From positions 5,478,501 to 5,542,500 of the forward strand of contig NZ_AP024452.1 of the NCBI RefSeq assembly GCF_016865485.1: a DNA stretch of 64,000 nucleotides, read 5' to 3'. Position numbers and translations under genes: made by a program. The notes under the pieces were generated by a model. That model worked only from the letters and a program-made list of their open reading frames with translations, was not told the origin of the DNA and did no database searches. Origin of the DNA: Luteitalea sp. TBR-22. GTDB lineage: Bacteria; Acidobacteriota; Vicinamibacteria; Vicinamibacterales; Vicinamibacteraceae. Shown piece by piece: positions 9,677-14,142 of the stretch (positions within the stretch are counted from its first letter, which is position 1; every line of letters begins with the position of its first letter).

Positions 9677-11389
9677 TCACGGCAGCATCAGCCCCAGGGC
9701 GCGCGCATCGGCAGGGCGCTCGGCAGGCACGGGCGAGAGGGTCTTCATGATCGCCGTCGCGAAGGCCTCAGGCACGTCGGCGCGAACCGTGGCGAGCGGC
9801 TCCGGTCGTTCCCGCAACATCGCGCCGAGCAACTGCGGCAGCGACGGCTCCACGAACGGCGGCGATCCGGTCGCCATCGTGTAGGCGAGCGCGCCGATGG
9901 TGAACAGGTCGCCGGCTATCGACAGGGGTTCGCCCATGAGCACTTCCGGCGCGACGAACGGCAGCTCTGACTCTCGCAACTCCGTGCCGCGCAGCGCGCC
10001 GACGCTGACCGTGTCGAGCAGATCCTGCACCTGACTCACGCCGCCCGACGACACCAGCAGGCGCTCCTCCCCGTCCTCGATCGTGAGCCGCGTCGTCAGC
10101 GGCGTGATCCCGCAGATGAACGCGCCGCGCCGGTGCAGTGCGGCGACACCGTCCACCAGTTGGTGCACGAACGACTGCAGCACGGGCCAGGCGAGCGGAC
10201 CGTCCTTCTCGAGGCGCTGCGCGAGGCTGTCGCCGAGCACGAGGTCGGTGACCACGTACACGTAGTCGGGCTCCTCGCCGAAGTCGCGCACGTGCATCAC
10301 GTTGGGGTGGTTCACCTGCATGGCGCGCGCCTCGCGGATGAACCGTTCCCGCGCGGCGTCCCAGTCGGCCACGTCCTCGCGACGGAGCACGCGGATGGCC
10401 ACCGACGTGCCGAGCGCCTGATGCGTGCCGAGGTAGATCTGGCTGCCGAGCCGGCCTTTCGACAAGGGCGCGCCCAGTTCGTAGCCGCGAATGCTCGGCG
10501 GTCCGGTCGGTGCGGGCCGCGGTGCCGCGCCGCCGGCCACCGTGCTCCCCGGCGACGACGATTCGCGCAACGCCCGCGCCAGCACCTCCATCGACCCGGG
10601 GCGCTTCGCGCGGTCCTTGGCCAGTCCTTGCAGGATCACCGCTTCGAGGCCCGCGGGGACGCCGGGCACGAAGTCGCGCAACGGCTGCGGTTCGCGGGTG
10701 AGGTGGTGCGTGATGATCACGAACGGGTCGTCGTGCGAGAACGGCGGGCGACCGGTGAGCAGTTCGTACAACATCGCGCAGAAGCTGTAGATGTCGGCGC
10801 GCGCGTCGACCTCCTCGCCCCGCAGTTGCTCGGGCGACGCGTAGTGCACCGTGCCGAGGAACTGCCGGTCGAGGGTGAGCTTCAGGGCGCCGGCGATCTC
10901 GCGCACGTTCACCAGGCCGAAATCGACGACCTTGTGCACGTAGCGGCCCGGCATGTACTCGTGGCTGACGACGTTTGCCGGCTTCAGGTCGCGGTGGACG
11001 ACGCCGGCGTCGTGGGCGAGTTGGAGCGCGCTGCACAGCGGGGCGGCGATGTCGACCACCTCCTCGTGCGGCAGCACGCGGTCGACGGCCAGCCGCTGCA
11101 GCAGGCTCGGGCCGTTGAGGTACTCCATCACAAGGAAGGGACGGCCGGCCGCGTCGACGTCGTAGTCGAGCACGCCGACGATGTGCGGGTGGCGGAGCTG
11201 GGCAGCGGCCCGGCTCTCCCGCAGGAACCGCTCCCGGAGCGAGGCGTCGTCCGGGGTCGAGAGCATCTTCACGGCGACCTCGTCGCCGAGGACGACGCGG
11301 CGGGCGCGGTAGACGGCGCCCATGCCGCCGCGGGCGAGCAGTTCGAGGATCTCGTAACGACCGTCGAGGACCTCGCCGGGCGTGAGCAC
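9677..11389 (-). CDS. Serine/threonine kinase fused to a pseudokinase
   Basis: I start this 570-residue protein at a GTG preceded by AGGAG, just before LTPGEVLDGRYEIL; the open frame continues upstream but would run into the divergent peptidase gene. Residues 10-275 form a complete Hanks-type kinase: glycine loop ARGGMGAVY, catalytic Lys41 in VAVKML, HRDLKPAN near 132, DFG near 156, SPEQ after it. Residues about 303-570 repeat the fold (YELGAPLSKGRLGSQIYLG) but lack key residues: the lysine position reads AIRVL, there is no HRD, and DFG is replaced by SSGG, while APE survives as VAPE. No membrane segment is seen, so the protein is probably cytoplasmic. The second domain most likely has a regulatory or docking role (inference). 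Confidence 0.85.
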   Translation of the reverse strand: MLTPGEVLDGRYEILELLARGGMGAVYRARRVVLGDEVAVKMLSTPDDASLRERFLRESRAAAQLRHPHIVGVLDYDVDAAGRPFLVMEYLNGPSLLQRLAVDRVLPHEEVVDIAAPLCSALQLAHDAGVVHRDLKPANVVSHEYMPGRYVHKVVDFGLVNVREIAGALKLTLDRQFLGTVHYASPEQLRGEEVDARADIYSFCAMLYELLTGRPPFSHDDPFVIITHHLTREPQPLRDFVPGVPAGLEAVILQGLAKDRAKRPGSMEVLARALRESSSPGSTVAGGAAPRPAPTGPPSIRGYELGAPLSKGRLGSQIYLGTHQALGTSVAIRVLRREDVADWDAARERFIREARAMQVNHPNVMHVRDFGEEPDYVYVVTDLVLGDSLAQRLEKDGPLAWPVLQSFVHQLVDGVAALHRRGAFICGITPLTTRLTIEDGEERLLVSSGGVSQVQDLLDTVSVGALRGTELRESELPFVAPEVLMGEPLSIAGDLFTIGALAYTMATGSPPFVEPSLPQLLGAMLRERPEPLATVRADVPEAFATAIMKTLSPVPAERPADARALGLMLP

Positions 11390-11462
11390 GCGGTCGGAAT
11401 CTCCTATGATTTCAGGTGCCGCTGCCCATTCCCGGCAGCGCCGCCATGGTACCAGAGCCCCG

Positions 11463-13280
11463 ATGCCACGCCCGTTCCTTGCGCTCGTCCTGTTCCTCTC
11501 CTGCCTGTCGCCCATGACCACCGACGCCCAGCCCGCCGGCGCCCGTCCCGTGCGCCCCGACGCCGACGCCGCCATCAGCTACACACTCCGCTTCCCTGAC
11601 GCCGCGCGGCACTACGTGGACGTCGAGGCCACCTACCCGACGGCGGGACAGGCGCGCATCGAGTTGATGATGCCGGTCTGGACGCCGGGCTCCTACCTGG
11701 TCCGCGAGTACGCGCGCCATGTCGAGGCGGTCGAGGTGACCGAGCCTGCCGGGGCGAAGGCACCCGTCAAGGTCCGCAAGAACCGCTGGGCCATCGAAAC
11801 GGGCGGCGCGGCACGCGTGACCGTCCGCTATCGGGTGTACGGCCGCGAGATGAGTGTCCGCACCAACTGGGTCGAGTCGCGCTATGCGCTGCTCAACGGC
11901 GCGGCCACCTACCTCACGCTGGTCGGCGGCCTGCAGCGGCCGCACCACGTGTCGCTGGTCCTGCCGCAGGGCTGGACGCGGGCCATGTCCGGGCTCCCGG
12001 AGGCGGGCGGGCGGTTCACCGCGGCCGACTTCGACACGCTCGTGGACAGCCCGATCGTGGCGGGCGACCTGAAGGTGTACGAGTTCACGCAGTCGGGCAA
12101 GCCGCACTACCTCGTCAACGTCAACGAGGGCGGCAACTGGGACGGCGCGCGGGCCGTCGGCGACGTGCAGAAGATCGTCGCCGAGCAGGAGAAGCTCTGG
12201 GGCTCGCTTCCTTACGACAAGTACGTGTTCATCAACATGATCACCGAGGCGGGAGGCGGCCTCGAGCACAAGAACTCCACCGTGCTCATGACCAGCCGTT
12301 GGGCGATGGGCACGCGCCAGTCGTACCTCGGCTGGCTGGGTCTGGTCAGCCACGAGTTCTTCCACGTGTGGAACGTCAAGCGGATGCGCCCGGCGGCGCT
12401 CGGGCCGTTCGACTACGAGACGGAGAACTACTCGCCGTCGCTGTGGGTTTCTGAAGGCTTCACGTCGTACTACGGCGACCTGCTGGTGCGTCGCGCCGGC
12501 CTGTCGACCGACGCCGAGTACGCCAACGGGCTCTCCAACCAGATCCGCGCGCTCGAGTCCACGGCCGGGCGCCTCGTCCAGCCGGTGACGCAGTCGTCCT
12601 ACGACGCGTGGATCAAGCAGTACCGGCCCGACGAGAACTCGGGCAACACCGGCATCAGCTATTACACCAAGGGCGCGGTGATCGCGGCGTTGCTCGACGC
12701 CCGCATCCGCTTCGGCACCAACAGCCAGAAGTCCCTCGACGACGTGATGCGGCTCGCCTACCAGCGCTATTCGGGGGCGAAGGGCTTCACCGAGGCCGAG
12801 TTCCGGGCCGTCGTGGTGGAGGTCGGCGGCGAGTCGCTGCGCGACGTCCTCGTGCGCGCACTCGACACCACCCAGCCGCTCGACTACCAGCCGCTGCTCG
12901 ACGCCTACGGCCTGCAGTTCGCGCCCAGCGACAGCCGGGCGACCAGGGGCTGGCTCGGCATCCGCACGCGGGTGGACGCCGGACGACTCGTGATCAGCGA
13001 GGTGCAGCGCGGCACGCCAGCGGCGCAGGCGGGCCTCAACGTCGACGACGAGATCATCGCGATCGGTGACTACCGGGTGCGCGCCGAGCAGTGGGATGCG
13101 CGCCTCGACCAGTACCCGCCGACCACGAAGGCCTCGATCCTGGTGGCGCGCCGCGACGAGCTGGTGAGGCTCGACGTCACGTTCGGCCAGGAGCCGGGCA
13201 ACGCGTGGCGCCTGCAGGCGCGGCCCAACGCCAGCACCGCGCAGATCGCCACGCGTACCGCGTGGCTGACTGGAAGGTAA
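11463..13280 (+). CDS. M61 family metallopeptidase with PDZ domain
   Basis: The 605-residue product starts at the Met of MPRPFLALVLF, which opens a signal peptide. Residues about 35-200 are the N-terminal beta domain of the M61 (glycyl aminopeptidase) family. The zinc site is HEFFH in SHEFFHVWNVKRMRP near residue 300, with the third ligand expected in WVSEGFTSYYGD. A PDZ domain (RGWLGIRTRV to DEIIAIGDYRV) lies near residues 500-570. It should act in the periplasm or outside, trimming peptides from the N-terminus. It is divergent from the kinase with only 73 nt between starts, and convergent with pcs across a long inverted heptamer array. Confidence 0.9.
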   Translation: MPRPFLALVLFLSCLSPMTTDAQPAGARPVRPDADAAISYTLRFPDAARHYVDVEATYPTAGQARIELMMPVWTPGSYLVREYARHVEAVEVTEPAGAKAPVKVRKNRWAIETGGAARVTVRYRVYGREMSVRTNWVESRYALLNGAATYLTLVGGLQRPHHVSLVLPQGWTRAMSGLPEAGGRFTAADFDTLVDSPIVAGDLKVYEFTQSGKPHYLVNVNEGGNWDGARAVGDVQKIVAEQEKLWGSLPYDKYVFINMITEAGGGLEHKNSTVLMTSRWAMGTRQSYLGWLGLVSHEFFHVWNVKRMRPAALGPFDYETENYSPSLWVSEGFTSYYGDLLVRRAGLSTDAEYANGLSNQIRALESTAGRLVQPVTQSSYDAWIKQYRPDENSGNTGISYYTKGAVIAALLDARIRFGTNSQKSLDDVMRLAYQRYSGAKGFTEAEFRAVVVEVGGESLRDVLVRALDTTQPLDYQPLLDAYGLQFAPSDSRATRGWLGIRTRVDAGRLVISEVQRGTPAAQAGLNVDDEIIAIGDYRVRAEQWDARLDQYPPTTKASILVARRDELVRLDVTFGQEPGNAWRLQARPNASTAQIATRTAWLTGR

Positions 13281-13459
13281 GAAGAGCAGAAGAGTAGAAG
13301 GAAAGAAGGCAGAGCGGGAAGGCGGAAGGCAGAGCAAGGACGAAGAAGGCAAAGGAGTCGTCCTTCTTTTATCGGCTTCTTCAGGGTCGTCGACCTTCTG
13401 GCGTCCTTCGTCCTTCCCGCTCTGCCTTCTACTCTTCTGCCCTTCTACTCTTCTGCCCT
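13281..13459. repeat. Inverted heptamer array, GAAGGCR type
   Basis: A purine-rich half (13281-13360) and a pyrimidine-rich half (13366-13459) form a large imperfect inverted repeat. The core is a perfect 18-bp inverted repeat, GAAGGCAGAGCGGGAAGG at 13305-13322 with its complement at 13412-13429. The right half runs into pcs and encodes its last ten residues. Confidence 0.9.
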
Positions 13460-14142
13460 TCCACGTTGAGCCAAAGGCTCAACGTGAAGTAGTACGCCGG
13501 GTACGCGACGCTGCTCCACATCAGCCACGCCGGAGGGGCGGGCAGCCACCAGATGATCAGCAGGACCTGGACGGCCCAGATGGCGCCGAAGACCAGCGTC
13601 GGCGCCATCAATGTGGCGGTTCGCGAGGGATAGACGTACTTGATGGGCACGAATACGAGGGCTGCCAGCCCCATCAGGAAGATCGCGGTGCCCGTCGCGT
13701 TCCACTGCCAGGCCACCGCGTACACGGCGATGAGGTTCCAGTACGACGGCCACCCCGTGAAGAAGTGGTCCTCGGTCTTGGCGTGCAGGTTCGAGAACCC
13801 GAGGCCGCTGGCGATGAGTACGGCCCCCACGGCCATCAGGCCCAGCGGGCCCGCCAGCAGTTGCTGGTCCCACAGCACGGCCAGCGGCACGAACACGTAG
13901 GTCAGGAAATCGACGATGTCGTCGAGGCGGGCGCCGTCGATCCACGAGGCGTGGCGACGGACCTCCACGGCCCGCGCCGCGAAGCCATCGGTGGCATCGA
14001 CGAAGCAGGCGAGGCACAGCCACAGCAGGGCCGTGCGCGGATCGTGGTCCCAGGCACTCCGGAGCGCCAGCCAGCCGATCAGGGCGCCCGACGCCGTGTA
14101 GGCGTGGACGGCGAGGGCGGCAGCGCTCCGGGCCAGGGACAT
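13429..14142 (-). CDS. pcs: Phosphatidylcholine synthase
   Basis: The 237-residue membrane protein belongs to the CDP-alcohol phosphotransferases. Its active-site motif is not the usual DGx2ARx8Gx3Dx3D but DGx2ARx12Gx3Dx3D (Asp52, Gly53, Ala56, Arg57, Gly70, Asp74, Asp78), the spacing described for bacterial phosphatidylcholine synthases. Other Pcs-like features are HAYTASGA near the start and GWPSYWN near residue 130; length also fits. Pcs condenses choline with CDP-diacylglycerol in the inner membrane to make phosphatidylcholine in one step. The last ten residues (GQKSRRAEE preceded by E) are read from repeat DNA and are unlikely to matter. The upstream 83-residue gene ends 13 nt before the start, suggesting one transcript. 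Confidence 0.9.
   Translation of the reverse strand: MSLARSAAALAVHAYTASGALIGWLALRSAWDHDPRTALLWLCLACFVDATDGFAARAVEVRRHASWIDGARLDDIVDFLTYVFVPLAVLWDQQLLAGPLGLMAVGAVLIASGLGFSNLHAKTEDHFFTGWPSYWNLIAVYAVAWQWNATGTAIFLMGLAALVFVPIKYVYPSRTATLMAPTLVFGAIWAVQVLLIIWWLPAPPAWLMWSSVAYPAYYFTLSLWLNVEGQKSRRAEE

Follow-up and report, generated by a model that had tools for sequence, protein, structure and literature searches.

A gene of Luteitalea sp. TBR-22, a soil-type bacterium of the Acidobacteriota, encodes a 570-aa protein that is most likely a soluble two-domain signaling kinase, made up of a kinase (D1) and a second kinase fold, a predicted pseudokinase (D2). Many relatives of this bacterium also carry the kinase-pseudokinase protein. 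Because the catalytic residues of D2 have all been replaced, yet the domain has been kept by evolution, D2 is probably a built-in regulator and not an enzyme. We think it likely, with some reservation, that D2 serves D1 in cis as an allosteric or sensing partner.

Gene, start codon and domain architecture

The gene occupies an open frame without a stop on the minus strand of the window, by which we mean the whole 64,000-nucleotide stretch of the Luteitalea genome that was analyzed. The features discussed below are the following.

9677..11389, minus strand: gene for the 570-aa kinase-pseudokinase, with its GTG start at 11389 and its stop at 9677
11401..11405, minus strand: AGGAG, probable ribosome-binding site by its sequence, 11 nt upstream of the GTG
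10565..11368, minus strand: D1, canonical Hanks Ser/Thr kinase, residues 8-275
10496..10564, minus strand: Ser/Pro/Ala/Gly-rich linker, residues 276-298, with near-neutral evolution
9680..10495, minus strand: D2, predicted pseudokinase, residues 299-570
10391..10393, minus strand: R333, replacing the beta3 ATP-binding Lys (VAIR for VAIK); R in 30/30
10331..10333, minus strand: E353, the alphaC Glu, kept; E in 30/30
10109..10117, minus strand: I425-C426-G427, replacing H-R-D, with loss of the catalytic base; Asp column G in 29/30, V in 1
10040..10048, minus strand: S448-G449-G450, replacing D-F-G, with the metal-binding Asp lost and the Gly kept; Asp column S 21, T 6, M 1, A 1
9944..9952, minus strand: A480-P481-E482, APE kept; E in 29/29

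A sequence-only reading of this region had chosen the GTG start, and correctly so: most homologues begin at the position of this codon with the family start M/V-L-x-P-G. We discarded a longer frame opening with ATG at 11575 on the grounds that it lacks conservation and runs into the divergent M61 peptidase gene. No transmembrane segment was found in the 570-aa protein, the highest 19-residue mean hydropathy being 1.34, and regulation must therefore be cytosolic. The two domains are separated by a linker of which residues 279-295 have a pLDDT below 50 in the AF2 model.

D1 is a canonical kinase

The Pfam Pkinase profile matches D1 strongly over residues 12-271 (216.9 bits for the whole protein), and by sequence D1 is closest to PknB (E 4e-50). 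All features by which Hanks-type kinases are recognized (Lys, alphaC Glu, HRDxKxxN, DFG and APE) are present in D1, where the motif residues are K41, E58, H132-R133-D134, N139, D156-F157-G158, E187 and D199. The K, E, HRD, K, N, DFG and APE positions are retained in 29/29 homologues where the column is present. As far as can be read from its residues, D1 holds everything required for Ser/Thr kinase activity. All D1 domains also share a short conserved insert (SHxYxxGxxVxK) between HRDLKPAN and DFG, at residues 140-153 (about 10931-10972 in the window); this family signature is absent from PknB.

D2 keeps the kinase fold and has lost the catalytic motifs

Taken alone, D2 matches Pfam Pkinase at 76.9 bits (cut-off 31.7, E 2e-21). 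A profile built from 30 D2 domains matches Staphylococcus aureus PknB/Stk1 and Mycobacterium tuberculosis PknB across the entire domain (E about 1e-33), and the alignment to PknB equates R333 with the Lys, I-C-G (425-427) with HRD and S448-G449-G450 with DFG. The sequence-only reading had described D2 as lacking the catalytic lysine, HRD and DFG, and the profile alignment shows that all three losses are real. Its wording needs correction for the lysine, which has been replaced by a conservative Arg and is not simply missing; the alphaC Glu and the DFG Gly (G in 29/29) are retained. The same reading held that D2 keeps the APE region and the full length of a kinase, which agrees with the whole-domain match to PknB and with the presence of E482 and its partner, the alphaI Arg R558 (R in 29/29).

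The losses are shared by the homologues: Lys has become Arg in 30/30, the HRD Asp is gone in 30/30 and the DFG Asp in 29/29. The kinase likeness of D2 is not due to chance, since these losses are found again in about 30 homologues. A pseudokinase is a kinase fold without the VAIK Lys, the HRD Asp or the DFG Asp, and in D2 all three are replaced, with the replacements nearly fixed. With neither the catalytic nor the metal-binding Asp present, and with Arg at the position of the ATP-binding Lys, D2 is predicted to be a kinase fold incapable of canonical phosphotransfer.

A kinase fold is carried by the sequence profile, to which structural models add weak support. Structure prediction had been proposed as a check, a second region without a kinase fold being the outcome that would overturn the reading. 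That outcome was not seen. The prediction gave AF2 models with strands and helices in kinase order, and the Foldseek matches listed were all kinases, with PknB at the top for the full model. These models were built from three sequences and have low confidence (pLDDT 63 for the full protein and 58.6 for D2), and no interface was read from them. The proposal of a kinase fused to a pseudokinase is supported by the sequence profile, the conserved motif losses, selection (see below) and the fold search.

The alphaC Glu, the APE Glu, the alphaF Asp and the alphaI Arg are invariant in the D2 family alignment, as are the glycine-loop motif GR[LF]GS and R434. One interpretation of this pattern is that D2 has a non-canonical activity, such as nucleotide binding or another type of transfer (compare AMPylation by SelO), that would depend on R333, E353 and the GR[LF]GS loop. 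The constancy of Arg at the Lys position, of the alphaC Glu, of R434 and of the GR-G-S loop exceeds the needs of the fold alone, and the top Foldseek match of the weak D2 model is ULK4, a nucleotide-binding pseudokinase. However, both acidic catalytic and metal-binding residues are lost in every homologue, whereas SelO and SidJ retain metal-binding residues, and we regard such an activity as improbable.

Distribution of the family

The family was found in 32/162 genomes of the order, representing 17 genera, with agreement between BLAST and profile searches. Across a sample of 396 genomes of the phylum, every member scored at least 235 bits against the D2 profile and no other kinase exceeded 182 bits; the score of 235 bits comes from a fragmentary member at the end of a contig, and complete members score above 380 bits. 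Both domains are present in 29 of the 32 carriers, two are truncated where their contigs end (G471 and G113), and one (G412) has a TIR domain instead of the kinase. A search with D1 alone returned the D2-carrying genomes and, at E 1e-58 or better, no free-standing D1 of the family type save one 45% relative (G434:C61), an ordinary kinase whose chain includes a hydrophobic segment and a C-terminal tail. The pairing of D1 with D2 is strict apart from the TIR swap.

The family is absent from two genomes of a sister genus and from one genome of the window's own genus. Beyond the phylum, coverage consisted of one scan of a genome collection, which gave two true same-genus homologues and one unrelated ordinary kinase. 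Three candidates for distant membership were rejected: the Actinocrispum protein (L068) matches through a single ordinary kinase domain, and two others (L047 and L048) are canonical kinases with HRD and DFG.

Exchange of the kinase for a TIR domain

The exceptional gene of G412 (L083:1420-2814, minus strand) encodes a TIR_2 domain (81.3 bits) followed by D2, without the active kinase, and lies well inside a 57-kb contig. Because its D2 is nested within the D2 clade (SH-aLRT 98), the TIR form is derived. D2 behaves as a portable module, since one genome joins it to a TIR domain and not to a kinase, and the arrangement suggests that D2 is a regulatory module and the N-terminal domain an output. 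The TIR fusion is a single case from one metagenome-assembled genome (MAG) and should be weighted accordingly. In the same genome, an upstream neighbor on the same strand ends just before the TIR-D2 gene; by eye it resembles a short STAS-like protein.

Selection and origin

Among four genomes of the same genus, dN/dS is 0.15-0.28 for D2 and 0.09-0.23 for D1, and the pN/pS of the linker is 0.66-1.02, near neutral. Both domains, unlike the linker, are maintained by selection, which for D2 is purifying. Over the order, mean pairwise identity is 0.57 for D1 and 0.53 for D2, and the divergences of the two domains are correlated over pairs (r = 0.91). The D1 domains form one monophyletic group (SH-aLRT 99) and the D2 domains another (SH-aLRT 100). 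It is possible that they arose by internal duplication, because a single clade of D1 and D2 is not rejected (p-AU 0.678).

This possible common origin, together with the loss of three catalytic motifs, could be taken to mean that D2 is a decaying duplicate without function. However, the low dN/dS of D2, the full domain with the same replacements in about 30 homologues across the order, and a D2 free of frameshifts and stops all argue against decay. We rejected it on the grounds of dN/dS and conservation, and consider it extremely improbable.

Gene neighborhood

In family f3, a 1190-aa PRK06567-like FAD/NAD oxidoreductase is encoded upstream on the same strand in 11/11 sampled members (L144:5067-8735 and its counterparts in 10 further genomes), and in several of them this gene nearly abuts the kinase-pseudokinase gene. 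In the genus of the window and in several other families, an M61 peptidase gene is adjacent or near, often accompanied by a phosphatidylcholine-synthase-like gene and a gene for an Lhr-like helicase. The kinase-pseudokinase gene is inherited together with its neighborhood. Because the neighbors differ between families of the order, gene context names no pathway. In the window, the phosphatidylcholine-synthase-like protein (13429-14142, minus strand) scores below curated cut-offs; its gene adjoins that of the Lhr-like helicase, and the two recur as conserved neighbors in several genera.

Gene context also bears on whether the protein could be part of anti-phage defense, like the PglW, MAD6 and PD-T4-6 kinases. 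The best-known bacterial examples of a pseudokinase paired with a kinase are those of PglW and DndF (PMC12839542), and the joining of one D2 to a TIR domain would fit such a role. Nonetheless, inheritance is vertical and syntenic beside genes of housekeeping type (either those for the M61 peptidase and the Lhr-like helicase or that for the PRK06567-like oxidoreductase), no defense genes were seen among the neighbors examined, D2 had no match on plasmids at E 1e-25, and the protein scores under the MAD6 and PglW cut-offs. The neighborhood gives no support to a defense-island setting, which we rejected, and a role in defense seems very unlikely.

A proposed mode of action

If D2 acts on D1 in cis, it would bind a partner protein or some cytosolic signal, and this binding would alter the packing of D2 on D1, thereby switching D1 on or off. 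The N-terminal domain would be the output, exchanged for a TIR domain in one homologue. The packing of D1 on D2 could take the form of the N-lobe "back-to-back" contact of PknB-type kinases, with D2 replacing the second protomer. We consider this contact doubtful, and it is the most concrete candidate because both domains keep the positions equivalent to L33 and D76, which, with R10, we take to be the residue numbers of the PknB N-lobe dimer. The L33 equivalent is L in 29/29 D1, 29/30 D2 and 53/71 other kinases of the phylum, and the D76 equivalent is D in 29/29, 29/30 and 40/71, respectively. These positions give a modest signal, as the L33 and D76 equivalents are retained by many PknB-like kinases in any case, and the R10 equivalent is unconserved in D2 (18/30 R, 4/30 K). 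N-lobe dimerization is known to activate PknB and PknD allosterically (PMC3601408).

Alternatively, D2 could be a scaffold or substrate-docking domain that recruits the targets of D1, or could itself be the main substrate of D1 and so become a phospho-dependent docking site, as MviN does for PknB and FhaA. This would agree with the known bacterial pseudokinases MviN and EssB/YukC, which act as scaffolds or, when phosphorylated, as docking sites (PMC12599244). In addition, D2 has been conserved without its catalytic residues, and a portable D2 on a TIR domain would also suit a recruitment module. On the other hand, no conserved FHA gene was recognized in the part of the neighborhood that was scanned, and the family has no conserved tail past the kinase fold. 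We view a docking role as rather unlikely, and favor D2 as a cis-acting allosteric or sensing partner. More broadly, D2 might, as a tentative idea, be a new lineage-specific, portable cytosolic sensor or switch for interchangeable outputs in cis (mostly a Ser/Thr kinase, once a TIR domain), which would make it a simple bacterial analogue of the control exerted by JAK-type pseudokinases.

Comparison with known systems

The sequence-only reading had described pseudokinase fusions that control an active partner as well studied in eukaryotes (JAK) but rarely so in bacteria. This is only partly right, as PglW of type-2 BREX and some DndF proteins already are pseudokinase-kinase tandems (PMC12839542). 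PglW resembles the 570-aa protein in that a single bacterial polypeptide contains two Ser/Thr kinase domains, one active and one inactive (PMC12839542). It differs in its size of about 1400 aa, with a NERD nuclease first, the pseudokinase before the kinase, and DNA-binding and STAND-like parts, whereas the protein described here has the kinase first and two domains only. Against the PglW model NF033442 it scores 116.7 bits (cut-off 990), which places it outside PglW. The same genome encodes a full PglW (NERD, pseudokinase, kinase) of a type-2 BREX system at G000:C1:737380-741612 (L188:1381-5613, plus strand), with 1458.7 bits against the cut-off of 990, and a PglZ at about 757 kb, about 16 kb from PglW. 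This PglW is an independent pseudokinase-kinase tandem of opposite domain order. Another, single-domain pseudokinase lies around 3910311-3910742 of the same contig (G000:C1; L190, minus strand), with WHGAIHPRD replacing HRD and a C-terminal membrane/repeat tail.

The scores against MAD6, the MADS defense kinase (NF047741; 194.4 bits, cut-off 460), and against PknB/Stk1 PASTA kinases (NF033483; 386 bits, cut-off 450) likewise fall short. PknB/StkP-type Hanks kinases are similar to D1 in sequence and to D2 in fold, aligned over its full length, but the 570-aa protein has no PASTA domains and no transmembrane segment, and its second domain is a pseudokinase.

Known bacterial pseudokinases include MviN, EssB/YukC and seven families (PMC12599244). 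Several of MviN (ActPs3), ActPs1-2, GLW, CP1, DYD and DLHK share with D2 the loss of all three catalytic motifs with the fold kept. The motifs of D2 (VAIR, xCGxxP, S-A/G-G) differ from those of MviN (VALT, Lsidhpsr, Y--) and from the printed motifs of ActPs3, CP1, DLHK and GLW (PMC12599244), a difference read from the printed motifs. In a text search, this review yielded no passage on a fusion with an active kinase (PMC12599244), and the open-access literature that we searched gave no account of a stand-alone bacterial kinase-pseudokinase of this type. What is new here is the stand-alone pseudokinase family with its kinase/TIR swap, whereas bacterial pseudokinase-kinase pairing was already known from PglW.

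JAK/TYK2 and the plant tandem kinase-pseudokinases (WTK) also combine a kinase and a pseudokinase in a single chain. The protein described here is bacterial, Ser/Thr-type and cytosolic, without FERM or SH2 domains, and its order is reversed relative to JAK, the active kinase being N-terminal. Its origin is presumably independent of JAK/TYK2 and WTK, and the resemblance is functional at most. Control of an active partner by D2 as in JAK, suggested earlier, is plausible. Bacterial pseudokinases are largely uncharacterized, and a minimal, soluble and strongly conserved 570-aa protein with an active-looking and a dead kinase and a natural TIR swap would be a convenient test system for pseudokinase control outside eukaryotes. 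Such a system could show whether control of a partner kinase evolved independently from the PknB-type dimer contact.
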